NCBI GenBank assembly: GCA_013314775.1
Contig: JABUFB010000002.1
Span: 186,576 to 250,575 of the forward strand
From: Armatimonadota bacterium
GTDB taxonomy: Bacteria; Armatimonadota; Zipacnadia; Zipacnadales; JABUFB01
DNA length: 64,000 bases
Direction: 5' to 3'
The notes beneath the pieces were generated by a model that was not told the DNA's origin, made no database searches, and was given only the letters and a program-made list of their open reading frames with translations. The position numbers and the translations under genes are program-made. Below are positions 3,185 to 14,046 of the stretch, piece after piece (position 1 is the stretch's first letter; each line of letters begins with the position of its first letter).

Positions 3185-3647
3185 TGAGTTGGCTGCTTGC
3201 GCGCGACCGGTTCGGTTCGATGGCGGCCCCGGAAGCCTCGCAGTTGTGGGTCGTCACGGATATGTGGGAGCACGCTGGGGTGTTCGAGTGGACCGATGAA
3301 TCGGCGGGGAAATGTTGCTGCAAGCGGATCTCGGCCCCGACTGGCGAGATTCGGGCACTGAGTCCAGCGTCCGCGGGGATGCTCTGAAGCGCGAGTTGTG
3401 AGTGCCACTGGCAGGGCTACGAATCGAGATGGCGTTGGCGTGTGGTCTCGTCCAGACGCCGGTGTTGCAGAAGGCGTACGGCCCGGGCTCAAGGTACCCG
3501 CGTCAGATGAAGGAGGACTTGACAGCCGCAGTGCGAATCCGATTACTGGAAAGGCGGTTTGCTGAGGTAGTCTGCGCCGCCTCACCAGTTGTTGGAGGTA
3601 TCGAAGAACACGCCAGTCCCAGGGCGTTGGTTCGAGACGGAGGTGCA
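3185..3647. other. 463 bp without a convincing gene
   Basis: This stretch between the gene remnant and the CARDB protein has only short, overlapping frames with no ribosome site or domain signature. The large frame that runs into the downstream gene from 3402 has no plausible residues before the signal peptide at 3648. A GGAGG ribosome site at 3639-3643 serves the downstream gene. No clear promoter hexamers were found. Confidence 0.5.
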
Positions 3648-6600
3648 ATGATGACGAGCAACCGGTGGGTCTTCCCTGTCGTGATTGCTATCCTGGCGTA
3701 CCTGGGGACACTTCCCGCCCCTGCCGAAGACATTCGGCTCAATGACTGCGAGATACGAGGAGCCGACTCCTTCGGTGATTTCCACAAGATGTTCCGATGG
3801 CCGGTCGGTTCTGGCGCGCCGATAGCCTTCGCCTGGGGGCAGTTCGAGCATGATGGCGATGAGTTCTGCCACGTCACCTCCAATACTTTCAGCGCCCAGA
3901 TCGAGTATCGGGCCCTCACCCCAAAGGCCTATCTGGAGCTCAAGACCTACTTCGCCAACGACGACGAATCCAGCGTGATCTTCGAGCTCACTCCGAGCGA
4001 GTTCGAGGACGACTGGCGCACCCTCACCCGCGCCTTCGCAAGCATTGACGATGTTGAGGACGTCGCCCTGCCCTTCCCTGCCGCCGGTGTCCATTTCCGC
4101 CTGCGAGAGCACTGTGGCACGAAAGAAGTGATCCGCGAGGACGGGTCGGTCGCCAATGTGTCCATCGGCGACAGCAACGCACGCTTCAGGGTTGTATCGA
4201 TAGGTTTCGCCTACGGGAACTGGGCGGCGAACTGGCAGGGCATGGACTTCCACCCCGGCGACGCCCAGGACAACTTTGACAATGTGACTCTTGAGCACGA
4301 GCGCGCCACCGACTACATCGAGTTCACCGCCGGGCAGTCGGGGCAGTGCACCCTCCAGGCTTACTGCCGCAGGAAGCAGGGCGAGGAGGGCAGACTGCAG
4401 GTGAAGGTCAACGGGAGCGTGAAAGCTGAGCCTTCGGTGCCCGGCACGGATTTCGCCTGGGTCGACCTGTGGACCGGCGAGCTGGCGGGTGGCGAGACGA
4501 TCCGCGTTGCGAATAACGAGTGGGAGGAATCCACCTGGCTGGGGCTGTCCAGCACACTGCATAAGTCCTGCGTTGAGTTCGCCCATGAGTCCCGCAATGG
4601 TCCGGTCTTCCGCATCGTTCCGGTGGGGGGAGATGGCGGCGGGATCGTCGAGCCTCCACCACCTCCGCCTCCCGACACAACCCCGCCGATCCTGGAGAAT
4701 GTGGCGGCCGGCCCTGTCTCCCACGAGGCGGCTATCGTCCATTTCGACGCCAGCGAGGACGTGCAATGGCGCGTGGAATATGGAACGACCAGCAACTACG
4801 GACAGACTTCGATCTCTCGGGGTTTCGATGACCCCAGGGCCGCCTCGCTGACGGGTCTCGCGCCCGACACTACCTACCACTTTCGCATCGTCGCCGCGGA
4901 CGCCGCAGGGAATGCCGCCGCTTCACCCGACCATACCTTCACCACCAAAGCCGTGCCCGACCGGACTGCCCCGGTCATCACCAATGTGCAGGCGGCCGTC
5001 ACCCACAACTCAGCAACCGTAACCTGGAATACCAGCGAGCCCGCCAACTCGAAGCTCTATTACGGTCGCGCGCCATCAACTGCGACCTGGACCGGTTTGG
5101 CGGACTTCGTGACAAACCACTCGGTCACTGTAGACGGCCTCCTGCCCAACACCACGTATGTATTCTGGGTGAAAGGCTCCGACGCGGCGGGCAACGAGGG
5201 CATCTCGCCTCAGTCGAGTTTCACCACCTCTCCGACTCCCGACACGCAGGCGCCGACGATTATCGCTCCAGCTGTGACCGCCATCACCCAGACCTCCGCG
5301 TCCGTCGTCTGGCGCACCGACGAGCCCACCGTTTCCTGCGTCGAATACGGGACCACACCGGCTTACGGTCTTGTTGCAACCCTCCAGGGCACGCGCACCG
5401 CTCATAGCATCGCCCTTTCGCAGCTGCAACCAGGTCGCCAGTACCACTATCTTGTGAAGGCGACCGACGCAGCCGGCAATACGGCCACGCACTCCGGTAG
5501 TTTCCAGACCGACCCGCCGGATGTGGGCACGGTTACGGGCACCGTGACCCGCCAGGATACCGGGGCGCCTCTGGCAGGGGCCACCGTGACCGTGCTGGGG
5601 AGCACCGGTCTGTCCGCCACCTGCGACGGCAATGGGGTGTACACCATCGCCGGCGTACCCACCGGAACCCGCAGCCTTCGTTTTGCCGCATCCGGGTGGC
5701 GTACCGCCACTGCCCAGGTAACGGTTCGCCGCACCCAGACCGTGACGCGCAACTTCGCTCTCGTCCCCGTGGGCACGGTCTACGGGTATGTGCAGACCCC
5801 GGTTACTGGGGATGCTGGCGGGCGGCCCAGGCCGCGCATGATCGGCCTCAATGGCGCAACCGTGCGCATCGCCGCCGGCAACCGGACCACCCAGACCGCC
5901 AACGGATACTTCGCTAAGCCTGACAGACCGGCGGATGGCTACTACGCCCTCGACGACGTGGCCGTGGGGACACATACCGTGACTGTTTCTCTGTCGGGGT
6001 TCGTGCCGCAGACGCTCAATGTCACCGTCCCCGGCCCGGGCGGGAAAGTTCGGCAGGATTTTAGCCTCGAGAAAGCCCGTCTCGACCTGTCGGTCACCCA
6101 TGACTCTCTCAACATTTCGCCGGAATCACCCATCGCAGGCCAGCGCGCCACCGTCGCCTGCACCGTAGTCAACTCGGGCAACATCGAGGCCCGGACGGTC
6201 CGGGTACGCTTCCTTTGGAATGGCGCGCAGATCAGTCAGTCTGTCATCGCGACCCTCAACCCCGGGGCCTCCCGACGCCTCACGTACTCCTGGCTCGTCC
6301 CTGCCGATGGGCCGACCAAGGGCGATCTGTCCGCGGTGGTGGAACCGGATGCCGGCATCGTGGAGGCCGATGCGAGCAACAATGTGGCCACCCGATCGCT
6401 GACCATTGTCCCCCTGAAGCCAGACGTCTCCATCCTCGCCGCGGACATCACGCACACACCGGAGTCACCCGGGTGTGGTCAGACTGTCACCATCCGCGCC
6501 ACCGTGAAGAACATGGGCGGCCTGGCGGCTGAGAACCTTGAGGTGGCCCTGAAGCGCGGCGATGAGACCGTGGCCACCCGCTCCCGATCGAGGCTCAATC

Positions 6601-7433
6601 CGGGAGAGCACTACCAAGCGTCCATGAGCTGGACCGTGCCCGCGGCCACCTACGACCCGGTTGCATTCCGAGTAGTCTTGGACCCCTCAAACAACATCGA
6701 TGAGCTGGACAAGACCAACAACCAGGCCGAGCACACCGTCGTGCCCGCTCTGCCGGATCTCTCCGTGGACGCCGCCGAGATAACCAGCACCCCCGCAGCA
6801 CCCATCGCAGGTGAGGACGTCCGCCTTAGCATCAAGGTCCGCAACCTCGGCGGCTCCAAGGCCTATAACATCCCCCTGCGAATCATGCGCGGCACCGACG
6901 TCTTGTCCGAGCAGACCATCAGCTCTCTGAGCGCCGGGAGCAGCACCACTCGGTATTTCACATGGGACATACCGGACACAGCCGGGGATTCGGAAAAACT
7001 CGGGGTCGTACTGGACCCGGCGAACTCTATCCCCGAGAGCAACGAGGCCAATAACGCCGCTCCGCACCTGGTGCTGGTCACGCCCCGGCAGATCGACCTG
7101 TACATCGCCGCCGCGGACATCACCCACACTCCGCCGGAACCCGAAGCGGGACATACGGCCACGATAAGCGTAATTGTGCACAACGGCGGGAACGTGAAGG
7201 CGAGCGGAGTGAAGGTGCGGTTCCTGCGAGGCGGCCAGCAGATAGGCGAGAAGACCATCTCCTCGATCACTGCGGGGGACGATTACACGACGAAACTCTA
7301 CTGGAGCGTTCCGGACGGCACCGTGGGCCCGGTGACGATCAATGTCGTCCTGGACCCGGACGGCGAAATTGCGGAGACCGACGAGAGCAACAACACGGCG
7401 TCCCACAGCTTCGCTGTACTTGCCGGGGACTAA
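3648..7433 (+). CDS. secreted multidomain protein: FN3 x3, carboxypeptidase-regulatory x2, CARDB x4
   Basis: A 1261-residue exported protein. The start at 3648 is chosen over the longer frame because it has a GGAGG site 4 nt upstream and opens a signal peptide (WVFPVVIAILAYLGTLPAPAE). Layout by residue: a beta-rich N-terminal region (25-330), a Pro linker (PPPPPPP), three FN3-like repeats at about 344, 439 and 532 (each with ATNDAAGN-like loops such as VAADAAGN, VKGSDAAGN, VKATDAAGN), two carboxypeptidase-regulatory-like folds at about 626 and 708, and four CARDB repeats at about 811, 924, 1035 and 1148 (LDLSVTHDS, PDVSILAADIT, PDLSVDAAEIT, IDLYIAAADIT). No catalytic motif is seen. CARDB arrays are typical of cell-surface adhesion or scaffold proteins, so a binding or matrix role is inferred. 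Confidence 0.85.
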   Translation: MMTSNRWVFPVVIAILAYLGTLPAPAEDIRLNDCEIRGADSFGDFHKMFRWPVGSGAPIAFAWGQFEHDGDEFCHVTSNTFSAQIEYRALTPKAYLELKTYFANDDESSVIFELTPSEFEDDWRTLTRAFASIDDVEDVALPFPAAGVHFRLREHCGTKEVIREDGSVANVSIGDSNARFRVVSIGFAYGNWAANWQGMDFHPGDAQDNFDNVTLEHERATDYIEFTAGQSGQCTLQAYCRRKQGEEGRLQVKVNGSVKAEPSVPGTDFAWVDLWTGELAGGETIRVANNEWEESTWLGLSSTLHKSCVEFAHESRNGPVFRIVPVGGDGGGIVEPPPPPPPDTTPPILENVAAGPVSHEAAIVHFDASEDVQWRVEYGTTSNYGQTSISRGFDDPRAASLTGLAPDTTYHFRIVAADAAGNAAASPDHTFTTKAVPDRTAPVITNVQAAVTHNSATVTWNTSEPANSKLYYGRAPSTATWTGLADFVTNHSVTVDGLLPNTTYVFWVKGSDAAGNEGISPQSSFTTSPTPDTQAPTIIAPAVTAITQTSASVVWRTDEPTVSCVEYGTTPAYGLVATLQGTRTAHSIALSQLQPGRQYHYLVKATDAAGNTATHSGSFQTDPPDVGTVTGTVTRQDTGAPLAGATVTVLGSTGLSATCDGNGVYTIAGVPTGTRSLRFAASGWRTATAQVTVRRTQTVTRNFALVPVGTVYGYVQTPVTGDAGGRPRPRMIGLNGATVRIAAGNRTTQTANGYFAKPDRPADGYYALDDVAVGTHTVTVSLSGFVPQTLNVTVPGPGGKVRQDFSLEKARLDLSVTHDSLNISPESPIAGQRATVACTVVNSGNIEARTVRVRFLWNGAQISQSVIATLNPGASRRLTYSWLVPADGPTKGDLSAVVEPDAGIVEADASNNVATRSLTIVPLKPDVSILAADITHTPESPGCGQTVTIRATVKNMGGLAAENLEVALKRGDETVATRSRSRLNPGEHYQASMSWTVPAATYDPVAFRVVLDPSNNIDELDKTNNQAEHTVVPALPDLSVDAAEITSTPAAPIAGEDVRLSIKVRNLGGSKAYNIPLRIMRGTDVLSEQTISSLSAGSSTTRYFTWDIPDTAGDSEKLGVVLDPANSIPESNEANNAAPHLVLVTPRQIDLYIAAADITHTPPEPEAGHTATISVIVHNGGNVKASGVKVRFLRGGQQIGEKTISSITAGDDYTTKLYWSVPDGTVGPVTINVVLDPDGEIAETDESNNTASHSFAVLAGD

Positions 7434-7526: not shown

Positions 7527-9419
7527 ATGACCGCCAGTGAAGGTCGGTACACTCGCGAGTTGGCGGTCGCCATCCAAGCCGCACTCGATGCCGGGCGCAT
7601 TCTGCGCGAGGACTTCCACCGTCCCGGCGGCCCGCGCGGATCGGGGCACCATGCCGTCGCAGACGGAGAAGCCGAAGCCCTGATCAGGGGCGCCCTGATC
7701 GAAGCCTTCCCCGAGTATGCCTACCTGGGCGAAGAGACCGGCTACAGGCCGGGGTCGGGATCTTCGCCCTGCCACGTCTGGGTGGTCGACCCGAATGACG
7801 GAACCAGCGCTTACCTGAAAGGATTCCGCGGCGCAGCAGTGTCTATCGCGCTGCTGCGGGACGGCAGACCGGTGCTTGGCGTAGTCTACGCTCACTGCGC
7901 TCCGGACGACGGGGGCGACCTCTTCTCGTGGGCCGAAGGTTCGGGCCCCGTCCAGCGCAATGGCCGCGCGGTCCCCCGCAAGTGGCCTGTCACTGCGGGT
8001 CCGGAGTGTACAGCGCTGGTGTCACAGAGCGCGGACAAGAGCCCCCGGGCCAATGCACTCGCAGCGCACCCGATGAGGTTTCGTGCGGTGACAGGCATTG
8101 CGTATCGGCTGGCGCTGGTTGCTGCGGGTGAGGGTGAACTGGCCGTCTCACTCAACGGACCATGCGCCTGGGACTACGCCGGGGGACATGCTCTGCTGCT
8201 GGGAGCCGGCGCGGACCTGTTTGACGCTGAGGGCCATCCTGTCACCTATGGTCCCGACGGCCGCAGCAGTTGCGGAGGGGCCTGCTTTGGGGGGCCATCG
8301 GCGCTGGTTGCCGAAATGGTGGGCCGCGACTGGAGCAGTGCGCTGCACCACGGTCATCCTGAAGAAGGCTACCTGCAGCTGTCCTGGCCGGTGCGCGGGC
8401 GGACTGTTCCCGTCGCGGGTGTCTTGTCCCGCGGTCAAGGGTGCCTGCTGGGCCAGTTTGCCGGTGACTCCCTGGGCGGCCTCGTGGAGTTCGAGGGAGC
8501 CGATTACATCGCCTCGCATTATCCGCAGGGCGTGAGGCTGCTGGCCGATGGCGGGGCATGGGGAACCATCGCGGGACAACCCACCGACGACTCAGAGCTG
8601 GCGCTGTGCCTGGCGCGGTCGATCGTGGCCGCGGGAGGCTATGATCCCGAGGCGGCGGCGCGAGCCTACGCTTGGTGGTATAATTCCGGCCCCTTCGACA
8701 AGGGCGACACCACGAGACAGGCTCTCATACCTGCCGCAAGATCGTTCGGGCACGGGCAATCGGCCGCCGACGCGGCCCGGGCGGCAGCGAGCACCACAAG
8801 CCAGGCAAACGGCGCCATGATGCGGGTGTGCCCCATCGGGGTCGCCGGTGCAAGCCGTTCGCCTGACACCGTGATCCAGTGGGCCAGAGCCGACGCGGAG
8901 TTGACTCACCCCCATCCCGTGTGCCAGAGCGCCAACGCGGTGTTCGCCGAGGCCATTGCCTTCGCAATCCGCGTTGGCGCGAGTCCCGCTGAGACCTACG
9001 AGCACGCCTGCGCGACCGCCGCCGAGATTGGTGCCGAGACGAGCGTCCGGGAGACCTTGGCTCTGGCTGCGAGCGCGGCCCCAGCGGACTACTCGAAGCA
9101 GCAGGGCTGGGTCCTGATCGCTCTGCAGAACGCGTTCTTCCAGCTATTGCACGCGCCGGATCTGGAGGCAGGCGTGGTGGACAGCATCATGCGTGGGGGC
9201 GACACGGACACGAACGCCGCCATCGCCGGTGCGCTTCTTGGTGCAGTTCACGGCAGGGACGCCATCCCATCGCAATGGGTCGACCGCATTCTGACCTGCC
9301 GGCCCCTGGAAGGTCTGTCCGGGGGCAACAAATCGCGTCCGCAGGCTTTCTGGCCGGTGGATGCTCTCTGGCTGGCCGAATTGCTTCTCACAGCCACCAA
9401 GGGTGACGCGCAGCCATGA
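7527..9419 (+). CDS. fusion of inositol-monophosphatase-family phosphatase and ADP-ribosylglycohydrolase
   Basis: A 630-residue two-enzyme protein. Residues ~1-270 are an IMPase/CysQ-like phosphatase with the metal ligands kept: GEETGY (Glu69, Glu70), WVVDPNDGTSAY (Asp88, Asp91) and AWDYAGG (Asp216). The usual DPIDGT has Asn in place of Ile. Residues ~295-620 are a DraG/ARH-type ADP-ribosylglycohydrolase with AGDSLGG (Asp314), TDDSEL (Asp354, Asp355) and GGDTDTNAAIAGALLGA (Asp559, Asp561), so the binuclear metal site looks intact. No signal peptide: cytosolic. The upstream GTG/TTG-type longer frame at 7491 is possible, but ATG 7527 begins the folded domain. A role in removing ADP-ribose and dephosphorylating a related nucleotide or sugar is inferred. 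A second ADP-ribosylglycohydrolase is at 12724-14046. Confidence 0.85.
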   Translation: MTASEGRYTRELAVAIQAALDAGRILREDFHRPGGPRGSGHHAVADGEAEALIRGALIEAFPEYAYLGEETGYRPGSGSSPCHVWVVDPNDGTSAYLKGFRGAAVSIALLRDGRPVLGVVYAHCAPDDGGDLFSWAEGSGPVQRNGRAVPRKWPVTAGPECTALVSQSADKSPRANALAAHPMRFRAVTGIAYRLALVAAGEGELAVSLNGPCAWDYAGGHALLLGAGADLFDAEGHPVTYGPDGRSSCGGACFGGPSALVAEMVGRDWSSALHHGHPEEGYLQLSWPVRGRTVPVAGVLSRGQGCLLGQFAGDSLGGLVEFEGADYIASHYPQGVRLLADGGAWGTIAGQPTDDSELALCLARSIVAAGGYDPEAAARAYAWWYNSGPFDKGDTTRQALIPAARSFGHGQSAADAARAAASTTSQANGAMMRVCPIGVAGASRSPDTVIQWARADAELTHPHPVCQSANAVFAEAIAFAIRVGASPAETYEHACATAAEIGAETSVRETLALAASAAPADYSKQQGWVLIALQNAFFQLLHAPDLEAGVVDSIMRGGDTDTNAAIAGALLGAVHGRDAIPSQWVDRILTCRPLEGLSGGNKSRPQAFWPVDALWLAELLLTATKGDAQP

Positions 9420-9761: not shown

Positions 9762-9847
9762 TGGCGGAGGCGGAGGGATTCGAACCCCCGAGGCTTGCGC
9801 CCAACGGTTTTCAAGACCGCCGCCATCGACCACTCGGCCACGCCTCC
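9762..9847 (-). tRNA. tRNA-Ser (anticodon TGA)
   Basis: The minus strand folds as an 86-nt class II tRNA with the CCA encoded. The acceptor stem is GGAGGCG paired with CGCCTCC and discriminator G. The anticodon stem GCGGT/ACCGT closes the loop CTTGAAA with anticodon TGA. A long variable arm fits serine. The T arm contains GGTTCGAATCC. Confidence 0.97.
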
Positions 9848-10792: not shown

Positions 10793-10802
10793 GAGGTTGA
10801 GG

Positions 10803-11069
10803 ATGATGGCGAGTTCAATGGTGCGGGTGAATGACAGCGCGCGTATGGCGCTCAAGGCGCTTGCGGAGCAGAGCGGGGAGACGATGGGCGCGGTGCTTGA
10901 GAAGGCGATAGAGTGCTATCGCCGCCAGCGCATACTCGAGCAGGCCAACTGCGCCTATGCAGCGCTTCGCAAGGACCCACAGGCCTGGCGGGAAGAGACC
11001 GAGGAGCGGCAGGCTTGGGCGGGGACGCTGGCGGATGAACTCGATGGGGATGGGAACCCGCCGGAATGA
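10803..11069 (+). CDS. ribbon-helix-helix antitoxin of a PemK/MazF-type pair
   Basis: An 88-residue protein whose first 45 residues (VRVNDSARMALKALAEQSG, then ETMGAVLEKAIECYRRQ) match the RHH/CopG DNA-binding fold of antitoxins. The C-terminal half is charged and would wrap the toxin. ATG 10803 is chosen because AGGAGG sits 6 nt upstream; the TTG at 10797 overlaps that site. It overlaps the toxin gene by four bases (ATGA at 11066-11069), so translation is coupled. It is expected to bind the inverted repeat at 10771-10792 and repress its own operon. Confidence 0.85.
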   Translation: MMASSMVRVNDSARMALKALAEQSGETMGAVLEKAIECYRRQRILEQANCAYAALRKDPQAWREETEERQAWAGTLADELDGDGNPPE

Positions 11070-11413
11070 CGCACTCGAAGCCCTCTCGCGGCGACATCTG
11101 GCTGGTGGATCCCAACCCCGTGCGTGGACACGAGCAGGCCGGCAGGCGACCGGGGCTGGTGGTTTCGGTGGACGGGTTCAACCACGGTCCCGCGGGGCTG
11201 GTGATCCTGGTTCCGATTACCACGCGGGAACGCGGAATCCCGTTCCACGTGCGCCTGGACCCGGGCGACAGCGGCCTGCGTCAGGCAAGTTTCGCGAAGT
11301 GCGAAGACGTGCGGTCAGTCGCCGCAGAGCGGCTGGTCCGCAGGATGGGATCCGCACCCGAGAACGCCATGAGCGCAGTGGAGGACTCACTCAGGATCCT
11401 ATTGGGCCTGTGA
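11066..11413 (+). CDS. PemK/MazF-type mRNA interferase toxin
   Basis: A 115-residue protein with the PemK/MazF core: RGDIWLVDPNPVRGHEQAG at the N-terminus (the active-site Arg-Gly and the His-Glu-Gln loop), GLVVSVDGFN, VPITTR, and the C-terminal strand SFAKCEDVRSVAAERLVRR. Length and order fit the family (about 110 residues). Members are sequence-specific ribosome-independent endoribonucleases neutralised by the upstream antitoxin. The gene ends 29 bp before the convergent URO-D gene. The cleavage sequence cannot be predicted. Confidence 0.9.
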   Translation: MTHSKPSRGDIWLVDPNPVRGHEQAGRRPGLVVSVDGFNHGPAGLVILVPITTRERGIPFHVRLDPGDSGLRQASFAKCEDVRSVAAERLVRRMGSAPENAMSAVEDSLRILLGL

Positions 11414-11442: not shown

Positions 11443-12585
11443 TCAGTATCTTCCGTAAGTCCTCGCAACCTCAACCATCGCGTGCAGATTCTCGAAGGGC
11501 GTGTCCCGGCCGCACTGGTCGCCTGTCGACAGGACAAAACGCCCGCCCTCGGCAGCATCGTCAATGGCCTGCTTCGCCGCCGCGACCACATCCTCTACCG
11601 TGCCCCGCAACATGGTATCCGTCGTGTGCAGGTTCCCCTTGAGGCAGATTTTGTCCCCGTAGAGGCGCTTGAGTTCCGCGAGATCGCAGTCTCCCATAGG
11701 CGGGCGTTCCAGCGGGTCAATGATGGTCAGCTCGGTCTCGAGAGCCATGATCTTCACCAGTTCCCGCTCTGGCCCGCAGGAGTGAATGTGGGTCGGGATT
11801 CCCGCTTCCGCCGCGAGGCTGATGACGCGCTTCAGCGCGGGCAGGGCGAGCTGCCGGAAGATCGCGGGGGTCTGCCAGATGAGTGTCCCCGAGCCGCCGA
11901 CCGCCAGGAAGTCCGGGCGGTTCTCTTCATCGAGGGCCATGATCCGGTGGAAGCGCGCTTCACCGGCTTCGACGCGCTGCTGCGCCCACTCCTCGTGCTT
12001 GTCCGGGTTATCGTAGTAGTGGTAGAGGGCCTCTTCGCTGCCGATGGCGCAACTGCTGATGACGAATGCGCCTACCAGGCCGTTGTCGCCCATCATGCGC
12101 TTCAGGCGACCGATGTTCGCGGGGCCGTAGTCCACGGGCTTCACACCCTCCACCGGCTCCCAACGCTCCGGGATGGGCGGCAGGCCGACTTTCTCCGGCG
12201 CGATCCCCCAGACCGGCGGGTCGGCGATGCGGTACACGTTGACGTGTCCGGCCCAGATCCGCTCACCCTTCTCCACCCGGGAGTTCTGAGTGACGATGCG
12301 GTCTTCGGTGCGATGGACGATGAACTGCTCCCATTGCGGGGCATCCGGATTGACTTCCTCGGGGAAAACCAGCGGCGCGTAGCCGTCCATGAGGGAGTCC
12401 AGGTCGAAGTACCGGGCGGCTGCGATGTACGCTTCCCAGATGGGCGGGTCGTTGTACAGGTAAAGGTCCCAGAATGGCTTGCCGGTAAGTTTCGCGGGAA
12501 CCATGTTGGAAATGTCGGGCATCACTGGGACACAGTCGGGAATGCGGCCGGCGAGTGTCGCGAGGAGGCGTTCGCGTTTGGTCAT
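11443..12585 (-). CDS. uroporphyrinogen-decarboxylase-superfamily protein (methyltransferase-like)
   Basis: A 380-residue protein of the URO-D/MtaA superfamily, starting MTKRERLLATLAG as is usual for the environmental branch. The metal-type motif HIHSCG (His-x-Cys-Gly) lies near residue 263, with GDCDLAELKRLYG and GNLHTTDTM downstream. In MtaA and MtbA the equivalent His and Cys bind zinc that activates a thiol for methyl transfer, so a methyltransferase or demethylase role is more likely than haem synthesis. No corrinoid protein is adjacent. A related protein is at 54414-55583. The gene follows the ADP-ribosylglycohydrolase on the same strand after 138 bp that contain a GC palindrome. Confidence 0.75.
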   Translation of the reverse strand: MTKRERLLATLAGRIPDCVPVMPDISNMVPAKLTGKPFWDLYLYNDPPIWEAYIAAARYFDLDSLMDGYAPLVFPEEVNPDAPQWEQFIVHRTEDRIVTQNSRVEKGERIWAGHVNVYRIADPPVWGIAPEKVGLPPIPERWEPVEGVKPVDYGPANIGRLKRMMGDNGLVGAFVISSCAIGSEEALYHYYDNPDKHEEWAQQRVEAGEARFHRIMALDEENRPDFLAVGGSGTLIWQTPAIFRQLALPALKRVISLAAEAGIPTHIHSCGPERELVKIMALETELTIIDPLERPPMGDCDLAELKRLYGDKICLKGNLHTTDTMLRGTVEDVVAAAKQAIDDAAEGGRFVLSTGDQCGRDTPFENLHAMVEVARTYGRY

Positions 12586-12723: not shown

Positions 12724-14046
12724 TCAGGATAGTGCAAGTACTTTGCGGGCGACCTTCACAGTTCGCGCGGTGAGGTCGCTGATCTTGCTCACGTTCATGC
12801 CCTCCAGGGAACTATGCAGCGTGTTCCGCAGAGGGGCGGTCCACTTGGACGGGACCGCGGAAGCACCCAGAAGCGCGCCCATGACCGACCCCGCGGTGGC
12901 GCCATTGCAGTCGGTGTCCAGCCCGCCCATGACGCTGATGCAGATCGCCTTCTCCAGGTCGCCTTTCGCATGCAGGCAGCCGATGAGCACGATGACCGCA
13001 TTGTTGATGGTATGCACCGGGTGGTAATGCCCGTACTTTGCATTCATGCGGTCCCAGGTGGTCTCCCAGTCAGCATCCCTGGCGCACCAGCGCACGGTGT
13101 CATCAATGGCCTGCGCCAGGCGGGACCTGTTGGGTATCTCGGCCCGGGCGACCTTGATGGCCTGCAGAAGGTCATCCGTCGCCATGCATGCGGCGATGAG
13201 GGCGGCGAAGAACATCTCCCCGTAGATACCGTTCTTCACGTGGGATACCACGGCGTCACGGAAGGCGAACTCCGCGGCTTTTTCCGGCCAACCTGGGGCG
13301 CAATAGGCGAAGCCGTCGCAACGGATCTGGGCGCCGATCCATTCGCGATAAGGGTTGAGCACCAGCGCGGAGTCCGGCGGCATGATATCATCCACCAGGT
13401 TGCGGTAGGCGGCGCGCTCGGCGGTGTAGACCCGGTGGAAAGGCAGGCGGCCCAACCATTCGGCAGCCACGTTCGCGGGGGTGAAGTCCGGGCCGTACAT
13501 TTCCATGATGTGCAGGCCGAGAAGAGTGTAGTCGGTGTCGTCGTCGCGGACGCTGTAGCGGATGTTTCCGCGCAGGCACGGGTTGCCTTTGGAGTGATAC
13601 GCCCGCATGCCCTCGGGCGGGTTCTTGAGCTGGGGGAAGTAGTCGGCGAGGGGGTAGTCGCCGGCGAACTCCAGGAGCGCCCGAATATCCTGCTTCGTCC
13701 AGCCTTCGACGGGCTTGCCCAGCATGCACCCCGCGCAGCGTCCCAGCCATGCGCCCTCGATGCGGTCGGCGATGGCGTCGTCGTCGATGGCCATCCGGCG
13801 CGGTCCCTTTCGGCGAGCAGCCCGGATTCCGTCGAGGTCTGACGGCTCGACATACGGGAAGTCGGGCGCGGGCTCGCATTTCGCCGCAAGGGCGAAGAAG
13901 CGCTCCAGTTGGGCCCTGCTCTTTGCTGCGGGAAGGTTGATTGACTGTTCGTAGATGGCTTTGAGCGCGTCTACGTCACAGCCTTCCTCCTTGAGCTGAA
14001 CTAGTTCCTCGGCGGCGAGACGCTTCAGGGAATCCAGGCTTGGCAT
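12724..14046 (-). CDS. ADP-ribosylglycohydrolase family protein
   Basis: A 440-residue DraG/ARH-family hydrolase. The start is set at 14046, since GCGGAGG lies 9 nt upstream; the longer open frame to 14382 runs into the divergent gene and has no folded sequence. A ~95-residue helical N-terminal extension precedes the core. The core has GAWLGRCAGCMLGKPVE (98-114), DDDTDYTLLG (168-177) for the metal-binding TDD region and GGLDTDCNGATAGS (374-387), where the usual GGDTDTN has Leu and Cys substitutions. The metal Asp residues appear kept. Known members remove ADP-ribose from Arg, Ser or other acceptors. Whether this one acts on protein or on small-molecule glycosides is open. Divergent from the beta-propeller gene at 14215. 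Confidence 0.85.
   Translation of the reverse strand: MPSLDSLKRLAAEELVQLKEEGCDVDALKAIYEQSINLPAAKSRAQLERFFALAAKCEPAPDFPYVEPSDLDGIRAARRKGPRRMAIDDDAIADRIEGAWLGRCAGCMLGKPVEGWTKQDIRALLEFAGDYPLADYFPQLKNPPEGMRAYHSKGNPCLRGNIRYSVRDDDTDYTLLGLHIMEMYGPDFTPANVAAEWLGRLPFHRVYTAERAAYRNLVDDIMPPDSALVLNPYREWIGAQIRCDGFAYCAPGWPEKAAEFAFRDAVVSHVKNGIYGEMFFAALIAACMATDDLLQAIKVARAEIPNRSRLAQAIDDTVRWCARDADWETTWDRMNAKYGHYHPVHTINNAVIVLIGCLHAKGDLEKAICISVMGGLDTDCNGATAGSVMGALLGASAVPSKWTAPLRNTLHSSLEGMNVSKISDLTARTVKVARKVLALS

Follow-up and report, generated by a model that had tools for sequence, protein, structure and literature searches.

What kind of substrate would call for an ADP-ribosyl hydrolase and a phosphomonoesterase in one protein? 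The question is raised by a gene in a 64,000-nucleotide stretch of an Armatimonadota bacterium genome (assembly GCA_013314775.1, contig JABUFB010000002.1, positions 186,576 to 250,575 of the forward strand; hereafter, the window), in which an inositol-monophosphatase-fold (IMP) domain is fused to an ADP-ribosylglycohydrolase (ARG) domain. The reading we favor, with moderate confidence, is that the product is a mobile enzyme in which an ADP-ribosyl hydrolase carries its own phosphomonoesterase, both acting on one class of substrate. In the cell it would reverse or clear away ADP-ribosylation as well as aberrant NAD(P) derivatives.

Domain architecture and active sites

The fusion gene (7527..9419, + strand) is a single open reading frame (ORF) of 630 aa, uninterrupted from its ATG start at 7527 to the TGA stop that ends at 9419. 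A Pfam scan recovered both domains that a first-pass annotation of the window had assigned to this polypeptide. The N-terminal domain (aa 12-242; 7560..8252, +) matches PF00459 (Inositol_P) at 114.6 bits (E = 7.7e-33) and the C-terminal DraG/ARH-type domain (aa 305-582; 8439..9272, +) matches PF03747 (ADP_ribosyl_GH) at 201.4 bits (E = 3.3e-59), far above the gathering scores of 27 and 26.2, respectively. Residues 243-304 (8253..8438, +) hold the end of the IMP fold and a linker, the median length of which is 34 aa over 85 sequences of the fusion family. In an AlphaFold model (predicted local distance difference test 95.8; predicted template modeling score, pTM, 0.95), built from an input alignment of 60 window or locus sequences with four plasmid rows left out, the relative placement of the domains is predicted confidently and the model is rigid. 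Sequence searches against solved structures returned DraG first for the ARG half, followed by further proteins, ARH3 and the Tri1 immunity protein among them, and SuhB, IMPases, and CysQ for the IMP half. By VIA-align, residues ~296-628 match Tri1 (top), Thermus thermophilus ARG, DraG, ARH3, and ARH1 at Z 30-39, and residues ~8-274 match SuhB and IMPases at Z ~29-30.

The first-pass annotation had also held that all recognized Asp/Glu metal ligands are present in both halves, which alignment with Escherichia coli CysQ and SuhB and an alignment of 85 full-length fusions bear out. The IMP ligands E69, E70, D88, D91, and D216, together with D46, are kept in 82-84 of the 85 fusions, and the di-metal Asp/Thr ligands of the ARG half (T353, D354, D355, D559, and D561) are invariant (85/85). 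D391, which aligns with Asp97 of Rhodospirillum rubrum DraG as placed via the D97N structure (2woe), is retained in 84/85, and H461 of the TH motif in 85/85. Both enzymatic activities are predicted from these domains and their conserved active sites. The exceptions in the IMP half are informative: among the homologous loci compared, which carry L-number labels, four (L046, L049, L052, and L095) have one IMP ligand each absent or changed, and the related Bryobacteraceae fusions L075 and L079 have lost most IMP ligands with the ARG half intact. The ARG halves of L075 and L079 remain 80% identical while their IMP halves have fallen to 49%; IMP function was thus lost in this pair and ARG function retained. 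The pair offers a natural test of which of the two activities matters.

Distribution and evolutionary history

Two short peptides taken from the ARG half served as queries against 84,980 species genomes and brought up 446 relatives. The first-pass annotation had asked for a database check of the two-domain order and a count of phyla; all of the best 80 relatives (80/80) cover both domains, from residue ~1-32 to 610-630, at 45-59% identity to the window protein, and they fall under ~14 phylum labels. These labels are record titles, many from metagenome bins, and single assignments may be wrong. They include Acidobacteriota, Planctomycetota, Hydrogenedentota, Chloroflexota, Myxococcota, Proteobacteria, Verrucomicrobia, and Armatimonadetes, as well as Gemmatimonadales, Synergistaceae, Spirochaeta, Riflebacteria, Schekmanbacteria, Krumholzibacteriia, and others. 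Finished records comprise the complete genomes of Sorangium cellulosum and Minicystis rosea and plasmids of Azospirillum, Rhodobacter, and Pseudomonas luteola. An assembly error joining the two halves, which had been named as a possible source of the fusion, is ruled out by the same architecture in 80/80 top species-genome loci, including the two complete genomes, and in four plasmid records, where the protein is annotated merely as an "inositol monophosphatase family protein".

Within the phylum of the window, the fusion gene is patchy and accessory. The full fusion occurs in 1 of 101 genomes examined, that of the window itself (which totals three ARG and two IMP domains), and was not found in three examined genomes of the same genus and family. 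Counting fusions across the phylum by a DNA pattern for GQPTDD was dropped, the pattern being too unspecific.

Quick maximum-likelihood trees of each domain place all fusion ARG halves in one clade (100% support), apart from other ARGs, and all fusion IMP halves likewise in one clade (100% support). Because each half forms one clade, the trees point to a single fusion origin followed by horizontal spread. The fusion tree departs from taxonomy, with two UBP9 bins and a Burkholderiales bin, for example, as near-identical neighbors, and pairwise identities in one half are correlated with those in the other (r = 0.56; 0/999 permutations as high). Nested within the fusion ARG clade are ARGs from phage contigs and four ARGs that stand alone; two of these are on Rhizobiaceae plasmids and two come from the phylum of the window. 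The simplest history has one old fusion that was spread widely by horizontal transfer, with one half lost later on in several lineages. The ARG persists where the IMP half is lost, as in L075, L079, and the ARG-only relatives on phage-labeled contigs and Rhizobiaceae plasmids, which suggests that ARG function is central and IMP function ancillary. Loss in the other direction occurs as well, as one IMP-only gene attests. That gene (L134:5974-6780), on a Pseudomonas aeruginosa plasmid near rimK and annotated suhB_1, is nested beside the P. luteola fusion.

Two loci extend the architecture. One (L057:199-3234) encodes an ARG-IMP-ARG triple fusion, and in the first of its two ARG domains the second metal motif is altered (KDNDT). 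In the other (L086:8972-11806), IMP-ARG is apparently preceded by a divergent DHH/NrnA-like domain, with DHH and GGGGH motifs present, to make a triple fusion; it is a single case with a weak match (E = 0.0022).

The existence of ARG-only, IMP-only, and dead-IMP descendants is what would be expected if two functionally unrelated domains had been joined by chance, each with its own job. We give this explanation little credence, given that a single fusion has been retained under ~14 phylum labels with both active sites and that the model places the domains confidently (pTM 0.95). With both sites mostly intact, the fusion appears to have been kept under long selection.

Gene neighborhoods

Clustering of 5,717 neighboring ORFs revealed no common partner or operon for the whole fusion family, nor did a constant partner emerge when the Pfam domains of 111 adjacent genes were tallied. 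About 15 of 85 fusion loci, plasmid copies among them, have neighbors like those of predicted host systems that reverse ADP-ribosylation; this figure is descriptive, a count rather than an enrichment test, with no matched control gene set scanned. The neighbors include WYL/WCX regulators (L110 and P. luteola L036), a NUDIX gene directly downstream of the fusion (Rhodobacter L035 and Gemmobacter L111), a HIRAN-ARPP protein (sister loci L042 and L116), YbjN-like proteins (L055, L063, and probably L058), and RecB-like nucleases related to the TM0106 family (L033, L035, L036, L095, and L112). L033 additionally encodes another ARG and metallophosphatases. Matches to ZacA (L107) and MkoA (L035) also lie beside the fusion, as do restriction endonuclease genes (L034 and L036), and a ResIII-type helicase lies near it in L118. 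Two candidates were rejected. ARPP was considered as a constant partner, being above the cut-off in 20 of 80 fusion genomes, yet it is adjacent solely in L042 and L116. The L042 gene at 5012-6601 was considered as a DHH phosphoesterase; an NCBIfam scan identified it instead as a NorR- and RtcR-related sigma-54 regulator.

These contexts bear on a role in anti-phage or anti-toxin immunity, in which the ARG would strip ADP-ribose placed on host molecules by phage or rival ADP-ribosyltransferases, as Tri1 does, and the IMP would degrade the released nucleotide after NUDIX cleavage. Beyond the defense-type neighbors, such a role is consistent with Tri1 as the top structural match of the ARG half, with ARG-only relatives that overlap the McrC gene of an McrBC-like operon (L128 and L129), and with an explicit prediction for ARG systems in PMC9503650. 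Pulling the other way, the fusion keeps ~50% sequence conservation across phyla, unlike fast-evolving defense proteins; most copies are solitary; and no PADLOC model matches the fusion. We regard immunity as a tentative possibility. Under the favored reading, the fusion would have been recruited into defense loci in some lineages, comparable to the ARG-plus-phosphatase systems predicted in PMC9503650. In L128 (5825-10939) and L129, both phage-labeled contigs, the restriction operon consists of HARE-Mrr, McrB-like AAA, and McrC genes, and its last gene is the ARG-only relative, directly after the McrB- and McrC-like genes.

The neighborhoods also speak to recycling of a phosphorylated nucleoside, inositol, or sugar glycoside, of which the inositol or sugar form was the alternative offered in the first-pass annotation. 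Sugar and inositol phosphates are frequent substrates of IMPase-fold enzymes, and members of the ARG family are in some cases encoded in sugar or nucleoside operons, as in E. coli yegTUV. Against this, kinase, transporter, glycosidase, or other sugar genes do not recur beside the fusion, and its ARG half is closer to DraG and ARH3 than to YegU (28% identity to YegU). Recycling is accordingly a poor fit, and we consider it very improbable.

In the window, the PemK pair and the separate ADP-ribosylglycohydrolase pointed out in the first-pass annotation are both present. The former (10797-11413, +) is a probable type II toxin-antitoxin pair, in which a ~90-aa ORF lacking a Pfam match overlaps a PemK/MazF-like toxin (97.7 bits). 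The latter (~12724-13869, -; Pfam scan) belongs to another subfamily, with no NGAxMR motif seen, and adjoins a URO-D/MtaA-like methyltransferase gene (11443-12585). As far as tested, neither the pair nor the second ARG shows a link to the fusion, and their proximity looks ordinary and incidental. A tRNA-Ser(tga) gene (9762-9847, -) lies directly downstream of the fusion gene; an island at this site was considered and rejected, as no exact repeat of 14 or more bases of the tRNA region occurs elsewhere in the window. Upstream, 3402-7433 (+) encodes a very large protein with several repeated segments.

Proposed function and relation to known systems

In the favored reading, the C-terminal domain would hydrolyze an alpha-ADP-ribosyl bond on a modified macromolecule or on a small molecule such as alpha-NAD+, and the N-terminal domain would take a phosphomonoester off the same class of molecule. 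IMPase-fold enzymes hydrolyze phosphomonoesters. Because free ADP-ribose contains an internal pyrophosphate alone and no phosphomonoester, a simple order of cutting and then dephosphorylating is impossible, and the two activities can share a pathway only if the substrate is phosphorylated beforehand (for instance, NADP-derived adducts, alpha-NADP, or ADP-ribose-1''-phosphate) or if a NUDIX step intervenes. The most plausible phosphate would be the 2'-phosphate of an NADP-derived ADP-ribosyl substrate, removed before cleavage; the alternative would be a nucleotide or ribose phosphate produced after a NUDIX step. Of the two-step clean-up proposed in the first-pass annotation, the union of an ADP-ribosyl-hydrolase-type domain with a phosphatase, with intact sites and long selection, is retained, and the cleave-first order is not supported in the form proposed.

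A more specific version would make the fusion an enzyme devoted to phosphorylated ADP-ribosyl compounds (alpha-NADP or 2'-phospho-ADP-ribosyl adducts derived from NADP) and working in two steps, with the IMP removing the 2'-phosphate and the product passing to the ARG. Such an assignment is unlikely on present evidence, and if true would make the protein an eraser specific for NADP-derived ADP-ribose, of which we know of no described example. Equally doubtful is metabolite repair of alpha-NADP(H) and alpha-NAD(H), whereby the IMP would remove the 2'-phosphate and the ARG would then hydrolyze alpha-NAD+ to ADP-ribose and nicotinamide. This would suit a solitary, conserved, and widespread gene and account for the joining of two activities, and IMPase-fold NADP phosphatases exist, one of them fused to NAD kinase (PMC8553519); the very patchy distribution (1/101 phylum genomes) argues against it, and it leaves the defense-type contexts unexplained. 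Metabolite repair and anti-phage immunity are specific forms of the favored reading, and the confidences placed in them overlap.

Several observations weigh against the favored reading itself. Chromosomal copies are mostly solitary, most having no conserved partner gene, and the flanking genes scanned around the window copy include no WYL, NUDIX, or nuclease gene; the WYL or NUDIX regulator associated with the systems of PMC9503650 occurs beside few relatives. The ARG-only relatives and the two dead-IMP lineages show that joint action of both activities is not a constant requirement. Finally, scores fall far below every equivalog cut-off, for DraG (TIGR02662; 134.3 bits versus 337.05), Tri1 (NF041672; 70 versus 490), CysQ (TIGR01331; 80.3 versus 228.8), and HisN (TIGR02067; 76.4 versus 275.15), and a specific substrate therefore cannot be transferred from any of these families. 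A phosphomonoesterase physically tied to an ADP-ribosyl hydrolase across many phyla points to a substrate with both an ADP-ribosyl bond and a phosphate ester. To our knowledge, such substrates (NADP-derived adducts, alpha-NADP, and ADP-ribose phosphates) have hardly been looked for in bacteria. The fusion gene can serve directly to flag loci with a possible role in reversing ADP-ribosylation, some of them among anti-phage genes.

Among characterized proteins, DraG, the ADP-ribosyl-[dinitrogen reductase] hydrolase, is the best sequence match to the ARG half and shares its fold, di-metal motif, TH motif, and the Asp97 equivalent D391; it differs in that the fusion ARG is joined to a phosphatase and scores below the DraG cut-off. 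Tri1 and ARH1/ARH3, the top structural neighbors, are stand-alone proteins with 20-26% identity to the fusion ARG half. The IMP half has the fold and metal ligands of CysQ, SuhB, HisN, and the IMPase family, whereas the fusion IMP halves form their own clade, and the loop before D46 often reads RPGGPRG, unlike E. coli CysQ and SuhB. A literature search returned no paper naming both families together and none describing the fusion. A precedent on the IMP side is MJ0917, a natural fusion in which an IMPase-family NADP phosphatase is likewise joined to an enzyme of NAD metabolism, there NAD kinase rather than an ADP-ribosyl hydrolase (PMC8553519).

A parallel for the whole protein is offered by the set of ARG-centered host systems predicted to reverse ADP-ribosylation (PMC9503650, section 3.8), which bring together an ARG, a phosphatase, a WYL or NUDIX regulator, ARPP, YbjN-type chaperones, and nucleases. 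According to that account, the ARG is coupled to a phosphatase in slightly more than 55% of the systems, and a WYL or NUDIX regulator lies nearby in more than 42%, so that a regulator is not strictly required. The fusion combines the ARG and the phosphatase in one polypeptide, and WYL, NUDIX, ARPP, YbjN-type, and nuclease neighbors accompany it in a minority of loci. The phosphatases described in PMC9503650 are of the rhodanese-type, calcineurin-like, HD, and HAD kinds, and its main text nowhere uses the words inositol, IMPase, or bisphosphatase. With an IMPase as a phosphatase not previously named there, the fusion extends the known ARG-plus-phosphatase theme.
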